The notes under the pieces were generated by a model. It was not told the DNA's origin. It made no database searches and worked only from the letters and a program-made list of their open reading frames with translations. A stretch of 5,624 bases of DNA. Origin: Solirubrobacteraceae bacterium (GTDB lineage Bacteria > Actinomycetota > Thermoleophilia > Solirubrobacterales > Solirubrobacteraceae). Position numbers and translations under genes: made by a program. The stretch covers positions 1 through 5,624 of the forward strand of contig JAICUS010000410.1 in assembly GCA_025935735.1 (NCBI GenBank), in the 5' to 3' direction. Shown piece by piece: positions 1 through 5,624 of this stretch. Position 1 is the first letter of the stretch. The number at the start of each line of letters is the position of its first letter.

Positions 1-1731
1 CGGCGCGAGGCGCACATGCGCCAGGCGATCCGCGCCACGCTGAAGGGCGGGGCCGAGCGGATCGCGGTCGTGTGCGGCGCCTGGCACGCGCCCGCGCGGG
101 CCGAGCTAGGGCCGGCCGCCCCGGATGCGCGGACCCTGCGCGGACTGCCCAAGGTCAAGGTGGCGGCCACCTGGGTGCCGTGGACGTACGGGCTGCTGGC
201 CCGGGCGAGCGGCTACGGCGCGGGCGTCGACTCGCCCGCGTGGTACGACCAGCTCTTCGACGAGGCCGAGGACCCGGTCACCCGTTGGCTGGCCCGGGCG
301 GCGCGGCTGCTGCGCGCCGAGGGGCTCGACGCGTCGGCCGCCCAGGTGGTCGACGCCGTGCGCCTGGCCGGCGCGCTCGCCGGCATCCGCGACCGGCCGC
401 TCGCCGGCCTGGACGAGCTGCTCGACGCCACCCGGGCCGTGCTCTGCCACGGCTCCGAGGTCCCGCTCCGGCTGGTCGAGGCGCAGCTCGTCGTGGGCGA
501 CCGGCTCGGCGAGGTCCCGCCGGACACGCCGATGGTCCCGCTCCAGCAGGACGTCGCCCGCGCCCAGCGGCGGCTGCGGCTCAAGCCCGAGGCGTCGGTG
601 CGCGAGCTCCGGCTCGACCTGCGGCGCGACATCGACCGCGAGCGCAGCCGGCTCCTGCACCGCCTGAACCTGCTCGGCGTCGAGTGGGGCACTCCCGTGG
701 AGAGAGATCGCCTGGGGGCCCACCCGACCGGCAACGTGTCGCGGCGCCGGCCGCCAGGAGCGCCTGCCGGTCGGGCACCCCTGGGCGGCGCGCGCGGGAC
801 GTTCCGGGAGGCGTTCCGGCTCGAGTGGCGGCCGGAGCTCGCGCTCGACCTCATCCACGCCGGCCGCTGGGGGACGACGGTCGCCGCGGCGGCCGAGAGC
901 CGGGCGCTCGCGCTCGCCGCCGAGCGCGAGCGCCTCGCGGACCTCGCGCGGCTGGCGGACGCCGTCCTGCTCGCCGACCTGCCGGTGGCGGGCGTGATGG
1001 AGGCGCTCGCCGCCCGCGCGGCGCTGGACCGCGACGTGACCGACCTGCTCGGAGCGGTCCCGCCGCTGGCCGGCGTGCTGCGCTACGGCGACGTGCGCGG
1101 CAGCGACGTGGCCGGCGTCGGCGACGTGCTGCGCGGGATCGTGCTCCGGGGCGCCATCGGCCTGCCCGCGGCGGGCGCCGGTTCAGACGAGGAGGCCGGC
1201 GCGGAGCTCGCCGGGCTGGTCGACGCCGTCAACGGCGCGCTGACGCTGCTGCAGGATCCCGAGTTGACGCGGTCCTGGCAGGAGGCGCTCCAGCGCGTCG
1301 CCGCCGGCGACAGCCAGCCCGGCGTGTTGGCCGGCCGGGCGACGCGGCTGCTGCACGACGCGGCGCAGCTGGAGCCCGGCGCGGCCGCCGCGGCCATGGC
1401 CCGCGCGCTCTCGCCCGGCGAGCCGCCCGAGCGCGGCGCGAGCTGGATCGAGGGCTTCATCGGCCCGAGCGGGCTCGTCCTGGTCCACGACCCGGCGCTG
1501 CTGAGCGTGCTCGACAGCTGGATCCAGGTCGTGCCCGACGACGCGTTCACCGCCGTGCTCCCGCTGCTGCGCCGCGCGTTCTCCTCTGTCCCCGCAGGCG
1601 AGCGCCGCCGCCTCGGAATGCACCTGCGAGCAGGCACTTCCAACCTAAAGGGGACTGTCCCCTTTAACGTCGAGCGGGCCGCGCCGGCGTTGGCCACCGT
1701 GGCCCGGCTGCTGGGGGTGGGCGATGAGTGA
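1..1731 (+). CDS. DUF5682 family protein, 5'-truncated by window edge
   Basis: The frame is open from the first base, so the true start lies upstream. I see 576 C-terminal residues; the family is, from memory, several hundred residues longer than a single domain, so perhaps 150-250 residues are missing. The ATG at 16 is internal: the preceding codons (RREAH) continue family-like sequence. Near the window start is a hydrophobic strand followed by CGAWHAP (His at about residue 29), a GxxH-type motif resembling those in the TraB/Tiki/ChaN-like superfamily. Later family-like blocks are LLHRLNLLGVEWG (about 218-230), RGTFREAF (265-272) and RWGTTVAAAAES. The end overlaps the VWA gene by 8 bp, indicating translational coupling. 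No signal peptide or membrane span is visible. Two segments (about residues 233-262 and 541-556) look inserted: they use codons rare in the rest of the gene (AGA, GAT, CCA, GGA, CCT, CTA, TTT, ACT). Biochemical function is unknown. Family recognition is from remembered motifs. Confidence 0.85.
   Translation, partial: RREAHMRQAIRATLKGGAERIAVVCGAWHAPARAELGPAAPDARTLRGLPKVKVAATWVPWTYGLLARASGYGAGVDSPAWYDQLFDEAEDPVTRWLARAARLLRAEGLDASAAQVVDAVRLAGALAGIRDRPLAGLDELLDATRAVLCHGSEVPLRLVEAQLVVGDRLGEVPPDTPMVPLQQDVARAQRRLRLKPEASVRELRLDLRRDIDRERSRLLHRLNLLGVEWGTPVERDRLGAHPTGNVSRRRPPGAPAGRAPLGGARGTFREAFRLEWRPELALDLIHAGRWGTTVAAAAESRALALAAERERLADLARLADAVLLADLPVAGVMEALAARAALDRDVTDLLGAVPPLAGVLRYGDVRGSDVAGVGDVLRGIVLRGAIGLPAAGAGSDEEAGAELAGLVDAVNGALTLLQDPELTRSWQEALQRVAAGDSQPGVLAGRATRLLHDAAQLEPGAAAAAMARALSPGEPPERGASWIEGFIGPSGLVLVHDPALLSVLDSWIQVVPDDAFTAVLPLLRRAFSSVPAGERRRLGMHLRAGTSNLKGTVPFNVERAAPALATVARLLGVGDE
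723..775. repeat. Inverted repeat inside an apparent in-frame insertion in the DUF5682 gene
   Basis: CCCGACCGGCA (723-733) is the perfect reverse complement of TGCCGGTCGGG (765-775), with a 31-nt loop that itself contains the palindrome CGGCGCCG (742-749). A second short pairing, GCCCA (718-722) with TGGGC (782-786), can extend the stem past a 6-nt bulge. The repeat sits between two conserved-looking protein blocks (LLGVEWG and RGTFREAF), which in remembered family members are separated by only a few residues. The intervening 30 or so residues are Arg/Pro/Gly-rich and carry codons (AGA, GAT, CCA, GGA, CCT, GGT) that are scarce elsewhere in the gene. I infer a small palindromic insertion about 90 bp long that kept the frame. 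A lineage-specific low-complexity loop is the alternative. Confidence 0.55.
1623..1634. repeat. Short inverted repeat next to the 21-bp palindrome
   Basis: CCTGC (1623-1627) and GCAGG (1630-1634) are perfect reverse complements around a 2-nt centre. The next palindrome starts 11 nt later. Five-base arms are common by chance in GC-rich DNA, so alone this would not be notable. Its place in the same rare-codon patch suggests it could be the second half of a two-hairpin REP-like unit. Confidence 0.3.
1646..1666. repeat. Perfect 21-bp palindrome (REP-like element) inside the DUF5682 gene
   Basis: Arms TAAAGGGGAC (1646-1655) and GTCCCCTTTA (1657-1666) are perfect reverse complements around a single T. 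As RNA this would form an 8-bp TAAAGGGG/CCCCTTTA stem with a 5-nt loop. The AT-rich ends stand out against very GC-rich surroundings. The codons across it (CTA, AAG, GGG, ACT, TTT) are unlike the gene's usual set. It encodes NLKGTVPFN, in frame, near the C-terminus between the conserved-looking RRLGMHLR and RAAPALATVARLLG blocks. Very similar GGGGACTGTCCCC-type palindromes occur, in my memory, as dispersed repeats in various bacterial genomes. I see only this copy in the window, so calling it a dispersed repeat is an inference. A Rho-independent terminator is unlikely: it lies within a gene and has no U-tract. Confidence 0.7.
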
Positions 1732-2869
1732 CCCGCGGCTGCGGCGCTGGCGGCTGGTGCTGGGCGGCGAGGAGGCCGACGGCACCGAGGTGCGGCTGGC
1801 CGGCGACGACGCAGCGATGGACGGCGCGCTCGACGCGGTGTATGGCGAGCGGGCCGGCGACCTGAGCGGATCGGCGCCCACGGTCGCGCGCTGGCTGGGC
1901 GAGCTGCGGGCGCGGTTCCCGTCGGGCGTGGTGAGCGTCGTCCAGCAGGACGCGATCGACCGCCTCGGGCTGCACCAGCTGCTGCTCGAGCCCGAGCTGC
2001 TGGACGCGGTCACGCCCGACGTCCACCTCGTGGCCACGCTGCTCAGCCTGCGCGACGCGCTGCCGGCCGAGAGCCGCGAGGCCGCCCGCCGGGTGGTGCG
2101 CGAGGTGGTGGAGGACATCGAGCGCCGGCTGGCCGACCGCACGCGCGCGGCGGCCCGCGGAGCGCTCGACCGCGCCGCCCGGACGAGCCGGCCGCGCCAC
2201 GCCGAGATCGACTGGGACCGCACGATCCGGGCCAACCTGCGCCACTACCGGCCCGAGTACGGCACGGTGATCCCCGAGCGGCTGGTCGGCCACGGCCGGC
2301 GCCGCCGCGCGCTCGCGGCCGAGCTCATCCTCGCGCTGGACCAGAGCGGCTCGATGGCCGCGTCGGTCGTCCACGCGGGCGTGCTGGGCGCCGCGCTCGC
2401 CTCGCTCCCGACGCTGTCCACTCGCGTGGTGGCGTTCGACACGTCGGTGGTCGATCTGAGCGACGAGCTCCAGGACCCGGTCGACGTGCTGTTCGGCATC
2501 CAGCTCGGCGGCGGCACCGACATCGACCGCGCGCTGGCCTACTGCCAGAGCCTCGTGAGCCGGCCGGCGAAGACCGTGCTCGTCCTGCTCAGCGACCTCT
2601 ATGAGGGCGGCGACGACGGCGCGATGCTGCGCCGCGCCGCGAGCCTGATCGCCGCCGGCGTGCGGCTCGTCGTCCTGCTCGCGCTGTCCGACGACGGCGC
2701 GCCCGGCTACCACCGCGAGAACGCCGCCCGGCTGGCCGCGCTCGGCGCGCCGGTGTTCGCCTGCACGCCCGACCGCTTCCCGGACATGCTCGCCGCCGCG
2801 CTCGCCGGCCGCGACGTCGGCGCCTGGGCGGAGTCCGCCGGCATCCCGGTCACCCGCGCGGCGGGCTGA
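1724..2869 (+). CDS. VWA domain-containing protein (partner of DUF5682)
   Basis: Complete, 381 residues. The ATG at 1724 overlaps the DUF5682 stop by 8 bp and is preceded by a G-rich Shine-Dalgarno-like stretch (GGGGGTGGG), so the start is well supported. Residues 1 to about 200 form a helical N-terminal region with a strongly family-like block IDWDRTIRANLRHY (162-175). The VWA domain follows. Its metal-ion-dependent adhesion site is intact: DQSGS (Asp206, Ser208, Ser210), Thr265 in GGGTDID and Asp291 in LLSDLYEGG. It should therefore bind a divalent metal and a ligand carboxylate, as VWA domains do. There is no signal peptide or transmembrane segment, so it is probably cytoplasmic, unlike adhesion-type VWA proteins. 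Cytoplasmic VWA proteins commonly work with MoxR AAA+ ATPases as adaptors in remodelling or metal-insertion complexes; applying that here is an inference from family context. The 3' end overlaps the convergent lipoprotein gene by 20 bp. Confidence 0.93.
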   Translation: MSDPRLRRWRLVLGGEEADGTEVRLAGDDAAMDGALDAVYGERAGDLSGSAPTVARWLGELRARFPSGVVSVVQQDAIDRLGLHQLLLEPELLDAVTPDVHLVATLLSLRDALPAESREAARRVVREVVEDIERRLADRTRAAARGALDRAARTSRPRHAEIDWDRTIRANLRHYRPEYGTVIPERLVGHGRRRRALAAELILALDQSGSMAASVVHAGVLGAALASLPTLSTRVVAFDTSVVDLSDELQDPVDVLFGIQLGGGTDIDRALAYCQSLVSRPAKTVLVLLSDLYEGGDDGAMLRRAASLIAAGVRLVVLLALSDDGAPGYHRENAARLAALGAPVFACTPDRFPDMLAAALAGRDVGAWAESAGIPVTRAAG

Positions 2870-3690
2870 GCGCCGCCAGGAAGCGCAGGATGCGCGGCCA
2901 CAGGTCCGCCTTGGCCGCGGCGTCCGCGCGCGCCGAGCCGCCGAACTCGTCCTGGACGGTCGGCGCGGGCACGTAGGGCAGCGCGACGCCCGCGAGGTGC
3001 CCGGCCCGGGGGTACGTCAGCGCCGTGTGGGCGAAGCGGAAGTGCCGGTCGCGCAGCCGCTGCTCGATCTCGTGCAGGGGGATGTCCAGCAGGTGCTTCG
3101 GCACGCCCGGCGCCGCGAAGTACGCGATCGAGAGGGTCGTGTAGCCGTGCGCGGCGAGGAGGCCGGCCTGGTCGACCATCGTGTTGCCGCCGTCGGAGCC
3201 GCCGAACAGCAGCACCGCCGGGTGCGGCCGGCGGTTGCGGGGCGTAAACAGGTCGCCATAGACGCCGTCGCGCTCGACGGTGAGGCGGCGCAGGCCGACG
3301 GCTGCCGGCGTCACGCGGCGCGGCACGGTGGCGCGTGCCACGGTCCGGCCGCCCTGGACCACCGACAGCGCCACAGGACTCGGGCCGGTAGGGGGCGGCC
3401 GGAAGTCCTGCGGCACGGCGGGGCGCGGCGGGCGCATGCCCCAGAGGAACCGCATGCCGGCGACGCCGCGCAGCCGCACGGACGCGTGCATTGGCGCTGC
3501 CGACGTCCACACCGTGCCCCCGAGGTCCGTCCAGCGCGCGCGCAGCGTGGCCGGCCCGTCGAGCCCGCGCACGTCGACCTCGACAGGCGAGTCGGCCAGC
3601 GGCGACCCGGCGTGGACCGCCAGCGTCACCCGCTGCGAGCCGCAGCCGGCGGCCAGCAAGGCCAACGCAAAATAGAGCGGCGATCCTCAC
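2850..3690 (-). pseudogene. Degenerate lipoprotein of the BAAT / acyl-CoA thioester hydrolase family
   Basis: The longest in-frame stretch starts at a TTG (3665) and gives 271 residues beginning MALLAAGC, a lipobox without the charged start of a signal peptide. A GTG at 3690 with a good Shine-Dalgarno lies upstream in another frame. Dropping one T from the TTTT run (plus-strand AAAA, 3669-3672) joins the two as MRIAALFALALLAAGC, a textbook lipoprotein signal. The body (numbered from the TTG) has the N-terminal Ig-like domain of the bile acid-CoA:amino acid N-acyltransferase/thioesterase family (about 10-125), then an alpha/beta-hydrolase start: HPAVLLFGGSDGG (148-160) and SIAYFAAPGVPK (179-190). 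After IPLHEIEQ (195-202) it jumps to LTYPRAGH (216-223), the block holding the catalytic His223. The nucleophile elbow (GxSxG or GxCxG) and acid residue are absent, an in-frame loss of roughly 120-130 residues relative to human BAAT as I remember it. It is last in the operon, 30 nt after the hydratase stop. Catalysis is very unlikely. Confidence 0.75.
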
Positions 3691-3695
3691 CGCTG

Positions 3696-3702
3696 CCTAC
3701 CT
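3696..3702 (-). promoter_or_regulatory. Ribosome binding site for the GTG start at 3690
   Basis: On the minus strand AGGTAGG lies 5 nt before the GTG at 3690-3688, in the 30-nt gap after the hydratase stop. This is good Shine-Dalgarno spacing. It supports GTG 3690, rather than the TTG at 3665, as the ancestral start of the lipoprotein gene. That makes the intervening frameshift real or a sequencing error, not an artefact of start choice. No separate promoter is visible in this gap. Confidence 0.6.
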
Positions 3703-3720
3703 GCCCGCCCGCGCGCCGCG

Positions 3721-4434
3721 TCAGTCTCGGTTCCAGGCGGGCGTGCGCCGGGCGAGGAACGCGGCCATCCCCTCACGCGCCTCCTCGCCGGCGAACAGCT
3801 CGGCGGACAGCCGCTCGGCCTCGGCGATCGCGGCGGACACGTCGGGCAGCGCCAGCCGCCGGACGGTCTGCAGGGCGCGCGGGCCGGCGGCGGCGATCGC
3901 GGCGATCTCCGGGTCGAGCGAGTCGCCGAGCCGGGAGACGAGGCCGAGCGCCTGCGCCGTCTGCGCGCCGAACGGCTCTCCGGTGAGCAGCCAGGGCAGC
4001 AGCGGCCCGGGCGCGAGCTTGGGCAGCGTGACCGCCAGCACGAGCGCCGGCGCCACCCCGACCTTGACCTCCGAGTACGCGAACGTGGCCCGCGCCGAGG
4101 CGATGACGATGTCCGCGCAGGCCACCAGGCCCATGCCGCCGCCGCGCACCGGCCCGTCCACCCGGCAGAGCACCGGCGCGGGGTGGGCCCACAGCGCGCG
4201 CAGCAGCTCGGCGAGCCGCGCCGAGTGATCGCCCCCGGCCGCGCGCTCGCGCAGGTCGACGCCGGCGCAGAACACGGGGCCGTCGTGGTCGAGCACGAGC
4301 GCTCGGGCGTCGCTCGCCCGCACGTGGTCGAGCAGCTCGTCCAGCAGCTGCAGCGACAGGGCGTTGCGGTTGTGCGGCGAGGCGAGCGTGACGACGTCGG
4401 CGCCGGAGCGGCGCTCGCGGCGGCTGAGGGTCAT
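3721..4434 (-). CDS. Enoyl-CoA hydratase/isomerase family protein (crotonase)
   Basis: Complete, 237 residues, slightly shorter than the usual 255-265. The ATG at 4434 overlaps the upstream dehydrogenase stop as ATGA; the longer open frame upstream is an Arg-rich shadow. Crotonase signatures in order: NRNALS (22-27) for substrate binding; FCAGVDL (55-61), the first oxyanion-hole loop; GPVRGGGMGL (94-103), the second oxyanion loop; YSEVKVGVAPA (120-130). The Glu122 of SEVKVG matches rat mitochondrial hydratase Glu164. The position of rat Glu144 (GGGCEL) is Gly102 here. The SEV[KR]xGxAPA form resembles LiuC/AtuE-like hydratases of branched-chain and isoprenoid acyl-CoA catabolism more than classical FadB-type enzymes, a comparison from memory. 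Expected role: hydration, or a related reaction, of a 2-enoyl-CoA made from the ligase product, feeding the adjacent dehydrogenase. It is cytoplasmic with no signal peptide. Isomerase or hydrolase activity cannot be excluded because crotonases are diverse. Confidence 0.9.
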   Translation of the reverse strand: MTLSRRERRSGADVVTLASPHNRNALSLQLLDELLDHVRASDARALVLDHDGPVFCAGVDLRERAAGGDHSARLAELLRALWAHPAPVLCRVDGPVRGGGMGLVACADIVIASARATFAYSEVKVGVAPALVLAVTLPKLAPGPLLPWLLTGEPFGAQTAQALGLVSRLGDSLDPEIAAIAAAGPRALQTVRRLALPDVSAAIAEAERLSAELFAGEEAREGMAAFLARRTPAWNRD

Positions 4435-5267
4435 GACTCGTAGCGGTAGAAGCCGTGGCCGGACTTGCGCCCCAGCCGGCCGGCGGCGACGAGGCGCTCG
4501 AGGATCGCCGGCGGCCGGTAGTCCTCGCGGCCGGACTGCTCGCACATGCTCCGGAGGTTGTTCAGCCGCGCGTCGAGGCCCACGAGGTCGGCGAGCTCGA
4601 GCGGGCCCATCGGGTGGCGGTAGCCGAGCCGCATCGCCTTGTCGATGTCCGCCGCCGACGCGACGCCCTCCTCGACCATCCGCATCGCCTCGTTGCCCAG
4701 CAGCAGCCCGAGCCGGCTGGTGACGAAGCCCGGCGCGTCGCGCACGACCACCGGGTCCTTGCCGAGGCGCTCGGCCAGCGCCAGCGCGTCGGCCACGGCG
4801 TCCTCGCCGGTGGCCTCGCCCACGATGATCTCGACCAGCGGCATCCGGTGCACGGGGTTGAAGAAGTGCATGCCGACGAACCGCGGCGAGTCGCCGCACG
4901 CGTGGGCCAACCCGGTGATGCTCAGCGTCGAGGTGTTGGTCACGAGCAGCGCGCCCGGCGGCGCAGCGGCGGCGACCCGGCCGAGCACGTCCGCCTTGAG
5001 CGCGGGGATCTCGGGCACGGCCTCGATGACCGCGGTGGCGTCCGCCACGTCGAGGTGCTCGGTGAGCGTCAGCCGCTCGACCGGGGCGCGGCGGGCGATC
5101 GCCTCGCGCGCCGCCGCCCGCGCCTCGGCGTCGACCTCGACGAGCGTGACAGGCAGGTCGGCCGCAAGAGCGACGCCCGCGATGCCACGTCCCATGGTTC
5201 CGGCGCCGATCACCACGAGCGAGGCGGCGCGCGGAGGCGCCGGGTGCGGCGAGCCGGCGCCCGTCAT
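4431..5267 (-). CDS. 3-hydroxyacyl-CoA dehydrogenase (3-hydroxybutyryl-CoA dehydrogenase type)
   Basis: Complete, 278 residues. The ATG at 5267 overlaps the ligase stop by 4 bp. The first 15 residues are a Pro/Ala-rich tail before the Rossmann fold. The fold begins VVIGAGTMGRGIAG (18-31) with Gly21, Gly23 and Gly26, and the acidic residue ending strand 2 is Glu44 (TLVEVD), which favours NAD over NADP. Further signatures are VIEAVPE (80-85 region), NTSTLSIT (111-118), GMHFFNPVHRMPLVEII (132-148) with catalytic His134 and Glu146, DAPGFVTSRLG (177-187), GNEAM with Asn192, HPMGPLELAD (218-227) and GRKSGHGFY at the C-terminus. It oxidises (3S)-3-hydroxyacyl-CoA to 3-oxoacyl-CoA. The stretch between strand 2 and VIEAVPE is about 33 residues, versus about 50 in typical PHB/butyrate-type enzymes as I remember them, so the helical arm that closes over CoA is shortened. 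It is coupled to the ligase before it and the hydratase after it. Confidence 0.94.
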   Translation of the reverse strand: MTGAGSPHPAPPRAASLVVIGAGTMGRGIAGVALAADLPVTLVEVDAEARAAAREAIARRAPVERLTLTEHLDVADATAVIEAVPEIPALKADVLGRVAAAAPPGALLVTNTSTLSITGLAHACGDSPRFVGMHFFNPVHRMPLVEIIVGEATGEDAVADALALAERLGKDPVVVRDAPGFVTSRLGLLLGNEAMRMVEEGVASAADIDKAMRLGYRHPMGPLELADLVGLDARLNNLRSMCEQSGREDYRPPAILERLVAAGRLGRKSGHGFYRYES

Positions 5268-5624
5268 GACGCGGCGGGCGCGCGGCGCAGGGTCGCGCGG
5301 TCGACCTTGCCGGTGCTCGTGCGCGGCAGGTCGCCGACGTAGCGGACGTCGCGGGGGTAGGCGTGGCCGCCGACCTTGGTCCGCACGTGCTGCTGGAGGC
5401 GCTCGGTGAGCTCGGCGCCTCCGGCGGCGTCGCCGCGCAGGCGCACGAACGCGGTGACGACCTGCCCGCGCGCCGGGTCGGGCAGCCCCACGACCGCGCA
5501 CTCGGCCACCGCGGCGTCGAGCAGCAGCGCCGCCTCCACCTCCGCGGGCCCGATCCGGTAGGCGCCGCTCTTGATGATGTCGTCGGCGCGGCCGTGGAAG
5601 TACAGCTGCCCGCGCTCGTCCGCC
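5264..5624 (-). CDS. Acyl/aryl-CoA ligase (ANL superfamily), C-terminal domain only
   Basis: The frame is open to the window edge, so only the last 119 residues are visible; the N-terminal domain and the start lie outside. This is the mobile C-terminal domain of the acetyl-CoA synthetase/acyl-CoA ligase/luciferase superfamily. The A8 hinge is GRADDIIKSGAYRIGPAEVE, with the hinge Asp-Asp and the Tyr-Arg-Ile preceding the Glu that starts the helix. The A10 motif is LPRTSTGKVDR, whose Lys is the adenylation lysine. Preceding it, HAYPRDVRYVGDLP resembles the YKYPRxxxFV form in medium-chain acyl-CoA and benzoate-CoA ligases. That hints at a small aromatic or medium-chain acid substrate, but the C-terminal domain cannot settle it. 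The reaction is ATP-dependent formation of an acyl-CoA via an acyl-adenylate. The stop overlaps the dehydrogenase start by 4 bp (ATGA). It is first of the four operon genes visible here. Confidence 0.92.
   Translation of the reverse strand, partial: ADERGQLYFHGRADDIIKSGAYRIGPAEVEAALLLDAAVAECAVVGLPDPARGQVVTAFVRLRGDAAGGAELTERLQQHVRTKVGGHAYPRDVRYVGDLPRTSTGKVDRATLRRAPAAS

Follow-up and report, generated by a model that had tools for sequence, protein, structure and literature searches.

Repetitive extragenic palindromic (REP) sequences have been described in Pseudomonas, Stenotrophomonas and E. coli as palindromes of 20-40 bp dispersed over the genome, accompanied by a few Y1 transposase genes per genome that have such palindromes near their ends; the transposase is called TnpA-REP or REP-associated tyrosine transposase (RAYT), and the systems 'REPtrons'. 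RPE-1, one of the Rickettsia palindromic elements (RPE), is much longer than a REP unit. REPs of the GTAG/CGTC type also occur within genes in several species, and the recB genes of two Xanthomonas contain different REPs at about the same site, according to the accessible part of the report (PMC3733652). An orthoswitch model, as given in the available portion of its source, holds that old REPs remain and decay while new ones spread (PMC3686654). The subject of the present analysis is a palindrome within a gene of the DUF5682 family, in a contig of 5,624 nucleotides (nt) from Solirubrobacteraceae bacterium (GenBank assembly GCA_025935735.1, contig JAICUS010000410.1, positions 1 to 5,624 of the forward strand), called here the window in its whole length. 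We consider it probable that this palindrome represents one REP unit, of the RAYT kind, placed in the DUF5682 frame, that REP sites in these bacteria are long-lived with their stems exchanged in place, and that the host has a system like that of its relatives. What is new here is the comparison of REP sites across species. The features concerned are the following.

1646..1666: perfect palindrome, putatively of REP type, TAAAGGGGAC-T-GTCCCCTTTA, with 10-bp arms, a 1-nt centre and its dyad centre at 1656
1642..1666, plus strand: putative REP unit, counted from AACC, a conserved extension on the 5' side; relatives have the consensus AACCTAAAGGGGNCNGNCCCCTTTAGGTT, of which the window copy has lost the GGTT at the 3' end
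1..1731, plus strand: DUF5682 gene, host of the palindrome, with its 5' end outside the window (Pfam E-value 4.4e-189)
1633..1668, plus strand: codons of residues 545-556, the coil that separates the last two of the predicted helices, with predicted local distance difference test (pLDDT) scores below 50 at 546-555
1724..2869, plus strand: VWA (CoxE-like) gene, downstream and overlapping the DUF5682 stop
1623..1634, no strand: small inverted repeat CCTGC/GCAGG, at chance level

The original prediction, made from the sequence of the window, had placed a 21-bp perfect palindrome in frame near the 3' end of the DUF5682 gene, in a patch richer in AT and in codons scarce elsewhere. All of this was borne out: GC content is 0.57 in 1620-1670 and 0.78 in the part of the gene within the window, and CGA, GCA, ACT, CTA and TTT are used 1, 3, 3, 2 and 1 times, respectively, among 576 codons. 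The CCTGC/GCAGG repeat that it had pointed out upstream is present, but at chance level: 62 pairs with arms of at least 5 and a spacer of at most 2 were counted, where the mean is 65.4. The palindrome itself, judged by length alone, is only mildly unusual: the window has one with arms of at least 10 and a spacer of at most 1, 60 first-order Markov sequences gave a mean of 0.18 and a maximum of 1, and the DNA fold has a z of -2.6. Length alone would therefore not reject a chance palindrome; chance is rejected because of the dispersed copies in relatives. An intrinsic terminator was ruled out, the hairpin lying within the gene, 62 nt before the stop codon, without a T run after it. The window has a single unit and no inverted REP pair such as forms a REPIN (REP doublet forming a hairpin), though pairs do exist in the relatives, where the unit measures 29-31 bp compared with the 21 perfect bp of the window.

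The search for dispersed copies was made in the genomes of relatives, the closest named ones being those of Solirubrobacter, with 67-69% identity to the DUF5682 fragment. The half-motif AACCTAAAGNGG gave 113, 42, 42, 28 and 64 matches in five genomes with both strands summed, a full palindrome scoring twice and two of the genomes (G002 and G003) being the same S. deserti strain; its reversed control gave 0. The family was covered by 146 genomes, 7 of which contain the core TAAAGGGGNCNGNCCCCTTTA (113, 46, 13, 12, 6, 6 and 1 copies), with a control of 0 throughout, and the exact 21-mer of the window is present twice in S. phytolaccae. The copies can be sorted into classes. Class A, AACCTAAAGGGG-NCNGN-CCCCTTTAGGTT, and class B, AACCTAAAGAGGGAC-N-GTCCCTCTTTAGGTT, are both palindromes of 29-31 bp, and the consensus of 39 class-A and 18 class-B copies ends in AACCTAAAG ... 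CTTTAGGTT, with neither GTAG nor CGTC. The pattern of class C, TTAAACGTCCWGGACGTTTAA, has 18 forward and 20 reverse matches in S. phytolaccae, and 19 and 23 in the genome G162; S. soli, S. deserti (G002) and S. taibaiensis have no match. From these relatives, the identification of the window palindrome as a REP-type element is well supported. Some copies have further palindromic sequence beside them: GCGACANNTGTCGC adjoins class-A REPs in S. phytolaccae and G162 (L148, L149, L054), perhaps as a composite unit, and at L043, L052, L053, L195 and L253 there are forms like AACATTAACGGGTCTGACCCCTTTAGGTT, or the complement of it, to which a further outer arm is attached, so that one hairpin seems nested in another.

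The same genomes encode Y1 transposases (Y1_Tnp, PF01797): 12 genes were found in five genomes, 3 of them in the duplicate G003, to which G162 adds 1 and G264 adds 2. Leaving aside G003 and the outlier G264, 9 of the 10 genes of five strains have a REP-type palindrome near one or both ends, some imperfect, of class A, B or C or of the GGCCCAGGGCC type; none of those displayed has the exact GGGGACTGTCCCC core of the window on both arms, and no palindrome was seen beside the G264 gene L307. At one RAYT locus collinearity extends over about 3 kb, at 78-84% DNA identity, among S. phytolaccae (L077), S. taibaiensis (L078), S. deserti (L080) and G162 (L308), and its palindromes read, in that order, GGCCCAGGGCC, GGGGTCTGACCCC, GGGGTCTGACCCC and CGTCCAGGACG. 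S. soli L076 matches one flank of it over about 600 nt (78-80%) and has GGGGCCTGACCCC. The original prediction of a REP-type, RAYT-mobilised palindrome was thus upheld in the relatives as far as dispersed copies, transposase genes with adjoining palindromes and the recurrence of the 21-mer are concerned, but not in its picture of a simple added insert.

This last point comes from the DUF5682 protein itself. Every stretch of 120 homologues was scored for codon choices able to spell a class-A or class-B REP, with at least 16/18 for A or 20/22 for B required to pass. Seventeen homologues passed, each solely in the linker that lies some 30 residues ahead of the C-terminus, the place at which the palindrome of the window encodes NLKGTVPF; outside this slot, 0 of 251,100 stretches reached 16 for A and 0 of 250,998 reached 20 for B. 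Among the window and its 44 closest homologues, the left anchor of the slot is found in 39 rows (P0024 is cut short), 18 of which pass, the window being one and the homologues accounting for 17, with a single strain behind both P0017 and P0018. REP-type peptides occur in the slot in several variants and in at least two frames. The window shares NLKGTVPF with P0001 (98% identity over 513 tree columns) and P0039 (75%). In 14 of the 15 other passing rows the lysine has a common offset that precedes its position in the window clade by four residues, mostly in another frame, the peptides being EPKGDSPLY, KGARPLY, KGVRHLY and KEGQSPS. Since the register of the window clade differs from that of the main clade (EPKGDSPLY), at least two events must have taken place in the linker. 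On a tree built without the slot, the presence of a REP requires 7 changes, 6 of them forced by the starred branches; 40 labelled rows were counted, seven rows without coverage of the slot being unlabelled and two decayed ones left out. Shared residues at this position had been named as a sign against a mobile palindrome, and the sign is there in P0001 and P0039; other orthologues have unrelated linkers (GAQAAPEE etc.).

At the DNA level, S. deserti has AACCTAAAGAGGGACAGTCCCCTTC in the slot and again at the VWA start 101 nt further on, with the same derived right end, and the slot of S. soli, read by eye, contains an apparent decayed copy, ACCTAAAAGGGAGCAGGCC... The junction between the two genes has a perfect class-C hairpin in S. 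phytolaccae and the same hairpin with one arm base changed in G162; in S. taibaiensis a palindrome was not found there. The REP-type peptide EPKGDSPLY stands at the 5' start of VWA in 2 of 120 VWA homologues (P0153 and P0180). The C-terminus of P0039 reads ENEPKGDSPL after the REP peptide of the slot and resembles the start of a further REP at this junction.

In the AlphaFold2 model of the window protein (mean pLDDT 74.7), the slot is predicted to be a coil between helices 532-544 and 557-571, with pLDDT below 50 at residues 546-555. The linker measures 22-27 amino acids with a REP-type sequence (median 23, 20 rows) and 22-26 without one (median 23.5, 16 rows); P0003, P0005 and P0007, which are below the thresholds, were labelled REP-like by eye for these lengths as well as for the tree, and P0041 was excluded from the comparison of lengths. 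The idea that the palindrome adds a short peptide is therefore not confirmed, the linker being equally long in both cases. The palindrome would be tolerated because it is open in the DUF5682 frame and leaves the length of the linker unchanged.

The DUF5682 slot is a recurrently occupied one and, from the sequences of the relatives, the position of the palindrome within a gene is one of many. A first gene caller, applied to an earlier sample of 39 REPs, placed 19 between genes and 7 within them, while 13 overlapped the end of a gene. This caller missed the VWA gene and called a doubtful open reading frame in the window, and a stricter two-sided coding test was therefore used, by which 20 of 171 REP stretches, taken from 140 loci of five genomes, are inside a coding frame; these 20 are in 17 loci. 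REPs thus lie mostly outside genes in the relatives, while the window copy is itself within one, and the view that a palindrome of this kind inside a gene is uncommon does not hold for these genomes. By reading of the translations, the REPs within genes fall in linkers and loops. Their hosts include what we take to be two regulators, one of SARP and one of LuxR type, an XDH-type oxidoreductase and a fusion of PabB with PabC. Two genes of S. deserti (L190/L116), histidine-kinase-like by our own reading, are joined into one 877-amino-acid frame via a stretch with two class-A REPs; G162 has a single class-C REP at the same site (L263).

For the comparison between species, the same 140 loci served (30 from S. 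deserti, 47 from S. phytolaccae, 38 from G162, 13 from S. taibaiensis and 12 from S. soli). The set is non-random, its sites coming from motif matches with partial lists for S. taibaiensis and S. soli; it omits G003 as a duplicate of G002, as well as some sites such as the biotin-carboxylase gene (ACC) and the RAYT of S. deserti, the ACC of G162 and the MocR of S. taibaiensis. Flanks matched in 47 cross-species pairs, 29 of which have a REP at the corresponding place in both members and form 21 clusters. By inspection, 9 of the 21 clusters (3, 4, 5, 7, 8, 10, 12, 14 and 17) have different families depending on the species; flank identities are 69-90% for these clusters, except for one side of cluster 17 (52-58%), and three of them (7, 8 and 10) set a REP pair of one species against a single REP of the other. 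Within genes, the frame and the flanking codons fix the register, so that the sequence by itself allows conversion to be distinguished from insertion and from decay. The linker of the PabB-PabC fusion contains four different hairpins: S. taibaiensis has class A with core CCAGG, S. deserti a class A that is shortened and has the core TCTGA, S. phytolaccae a GGCCC type with one mismatch and G162 a GTGC type. Each of these four species has the dyad centre 42 nt from the left conserved anchor and 37 nt from the right one. In the XDH-type gene the centre is at nt 30 (61 from the right) in S. phytolaccae (class C), S. taibaiensis (A) and G162 (C); S. deserti has in the same register a decayed AAGGGGTCAGGCGCCTT, missed by the automatic search and read by eye. 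At the ACC site the class-A core is TCAGA in S. deserti, TCTGA in S. phytolaccae, CCAGG in S. taibaiensis and TCAGG in S. soli, and G162 has class C; the MocR-type regulator has one or two REPs of class A or B depending on the species. Shared sites with different families, some of them on the same centre, speak for what would be an exchange in place.

Our explanation of this pattern is as follows. The palindrome of the window would be a single REP unit like those that go with RAYT genes in Solirubrobacter-type soil bacteria, and its host would have the same REP/RAYT system as these relatives; read in frame, it would encode the predicted disordered linker NLKGTVPF between the last two helices of DUF5682. 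At each such site, linkers within genes included, a hairpin would remain while its stem is swapped, mostly for a family that is multi-copy in that species. The converting may be the work of the RAYT: after a change in its specificity, single-stranded REP copies of the new family could convert the resident REPs. The general form of this proposal, that RAYT/REP systems rewrite resident REPs in place after a specificity change, with the dyad centre kept, the sites inherited like loci and the sequences evolving in concert, even in the frames of conserved enzymes, we advance only tentatively.

Several results weigh against this reading. S. phytolaccae, S. taibaiensis and G162 lack a REP in the linker of DUF5682, S. 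soli lacks one in its PabB-PabC (where 18 residues are missing) and XDH-type genes, and none was found at the corresponding place in 18 of the 47 flank-matched pairs. In ACC, the dyad centre moves by whole codons (36, 36, 36, 30, 39). The GTGC hairpin of G162 occurs once in 325 loci examined and the GGCCC type at two further places, counts that are not genome-wide for either. As for the transposase, L081 of S. soli has no such palindrome nearby and, although class C is common in S. phytolaccae, the two RAYTs detected in this species bear other palindromes. The customary GTAG or CGTC tag is absent from the consensus; either motif lies within 12 nt outside the element in 7 of 68 and 3 of 32 copies, and class C has CGTC within its stem. 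Lastly, selection on longer hairpins finds no support, as pairing of at least 6 nt outward beyond the core shows no clear excess (class A, 2 of 54 versus 1.6 expected; B, 1 of 24 versus 1.1; C, 6 of 51 versus 2.8). One more point, the different registers of NLKGTVPF and EPKGDSPLY, with the lysine four residues further on in the former, would fit with an insertion hotspot, i.e. with independent insertions in each species at the same linkers and gene ends, these being the few targets that are tolerated or structurally preferred. The changes on the tree of the DUF5682 slot, mostly forced, go in the same direction. What such insertions would hardly give is the exact coincidence of dyad centres in the PabB-PabC linker and in the XDH-type gene (3 of 4 species by automatic search, the fourth decayed), together with equal lengths, or the single lysine offset in nearly all passing rows outside the window clade; we therefore hold a hotspot to be unlikely.

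The original prediction was simpler: an ordinary selfish REP would have inserted in one gene, where it is tolerated and drifts without any special turnover. REPs within genes are indeed on record, in the part of PMC3733652 available, and the linker is disordered in the model, but the linker has not become longer, one slot is occupied repeatedly in 17 of 120 homologues and families differ at 9 of 21 shared sites, which makes this explanation improbable. Another possibility is that the hairpin was selected near the DUF5682-VWA junction as an mRNA stabiliser or translation coupler. Such a role, compatible with a REP origin, would agree with its position shortly before the stop of an overlapping gene pair, with the second copy at the VWA start of S. 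deserti and with the class-C hairpins at the junction in S. phytolaccae and G162; REPs are found, however, at many unrelated genes, and the S. taibaiensis junction has no detected palindrome, so that we give a regulatory hairpin little credence. Selection on the linker peptide itself, or a coincidental palindrome, is very improbable. The length of the palindrome would fit with chance, and P0001 and P0039 retain the identical eight residues, yet the linkers of other orthologues are unrelated, and the dispersed copies contradict both ideas: a purely protein-level cause was set aside because the same DNA motif is read in other frames of other genes, and it is found between genes as well. Exchange in place at long-lived sites thus remains the reading that we prefer.

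The window has a second in-frame segment in the DUF5682 gene, of another family than the REP.

703..789, plus strand: in-frame segment with an 11-bp perfect inverted repeat, CCCGACCGGCA (723-733) / TGCCGGTCGGG (765-775)

It replaces 3 residues by 29 (net +26) at a point where the model shows a loop of low confidence, and is specific to the window, being missing from the 40 nearest aligned homologues including P0001, which is 98% identical elsewhere. A mobile family was sought by a DNA search of 249 genomes of the class; 62 had matches (E-values of 3e-6 to 1e-3), mostly short and GC-rich, the longest covering about 60-67 of 91 bases at 76-78% identity, and none was accepted as a family member. 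The VWA homologues P0122-P0132 are 98-99% identical to that of the window and come from contigs of several sources, mostly JGI (Joint Genome Institute); close kin of the host seem to be widespread. On the minus strand, 3721-5624 encodes in a row an enoyl-CoA hydratase, a 3-hydroxyacyl-CoA dehydrogenase and the C-terminus of an AMP-binding enzyme, and looks like an ordinary acyl-CoA degradation cluster.

If orthologous sites do persist with the family exchanged on a fixed centre, REP evolution would include site-preserving conversion beyond insertion and decay, which bears on how REPs spread and persist; sites within genes, whose register is fixed, are a good testbed. Our literature search, which left subscription journals mostly outside its scope, gave no paper pairing Solirubrobacter with 'repetitive extragenic palindromic' and none on DUF5682. 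Among the matches listed, no title concerned the exchange of REP families at orthologous sites within genes, the nearest being PMC3733652 for recB and PMC3686654 for the orthoswitch, as far as their accessible parts go.

Compared with known systems, the elements described here are like those of REPtrons in their size, their dispersal and the few Y1 genes per genome with palindromes near their ends; they differ by the lack of a GTAG/CGTC consensus tag, by the 20 of 171 stretches found within genes and by their near-perfect long palindromes with a 1-nt centre. RPEs are likewise palindromic elements read in frame in protein genes, as the available part of PMC2229807 has it, but RPE-1 is described as an added segment. 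With the orthoswitch, in the portion of PMC3686654 consulted, our data share a syntenic RAYT locus that has different REP classes in related species, whereas here a different family occupies the same sites. Closest are the REPs read in frame within conserved genes in the accessible part of PMC3733652. Relative to these, the present case comprises many sites in five genomes, with different families per site, two genes in which the centre falls on the same nucleotide, and a DUF5682 linker of unchanged length.

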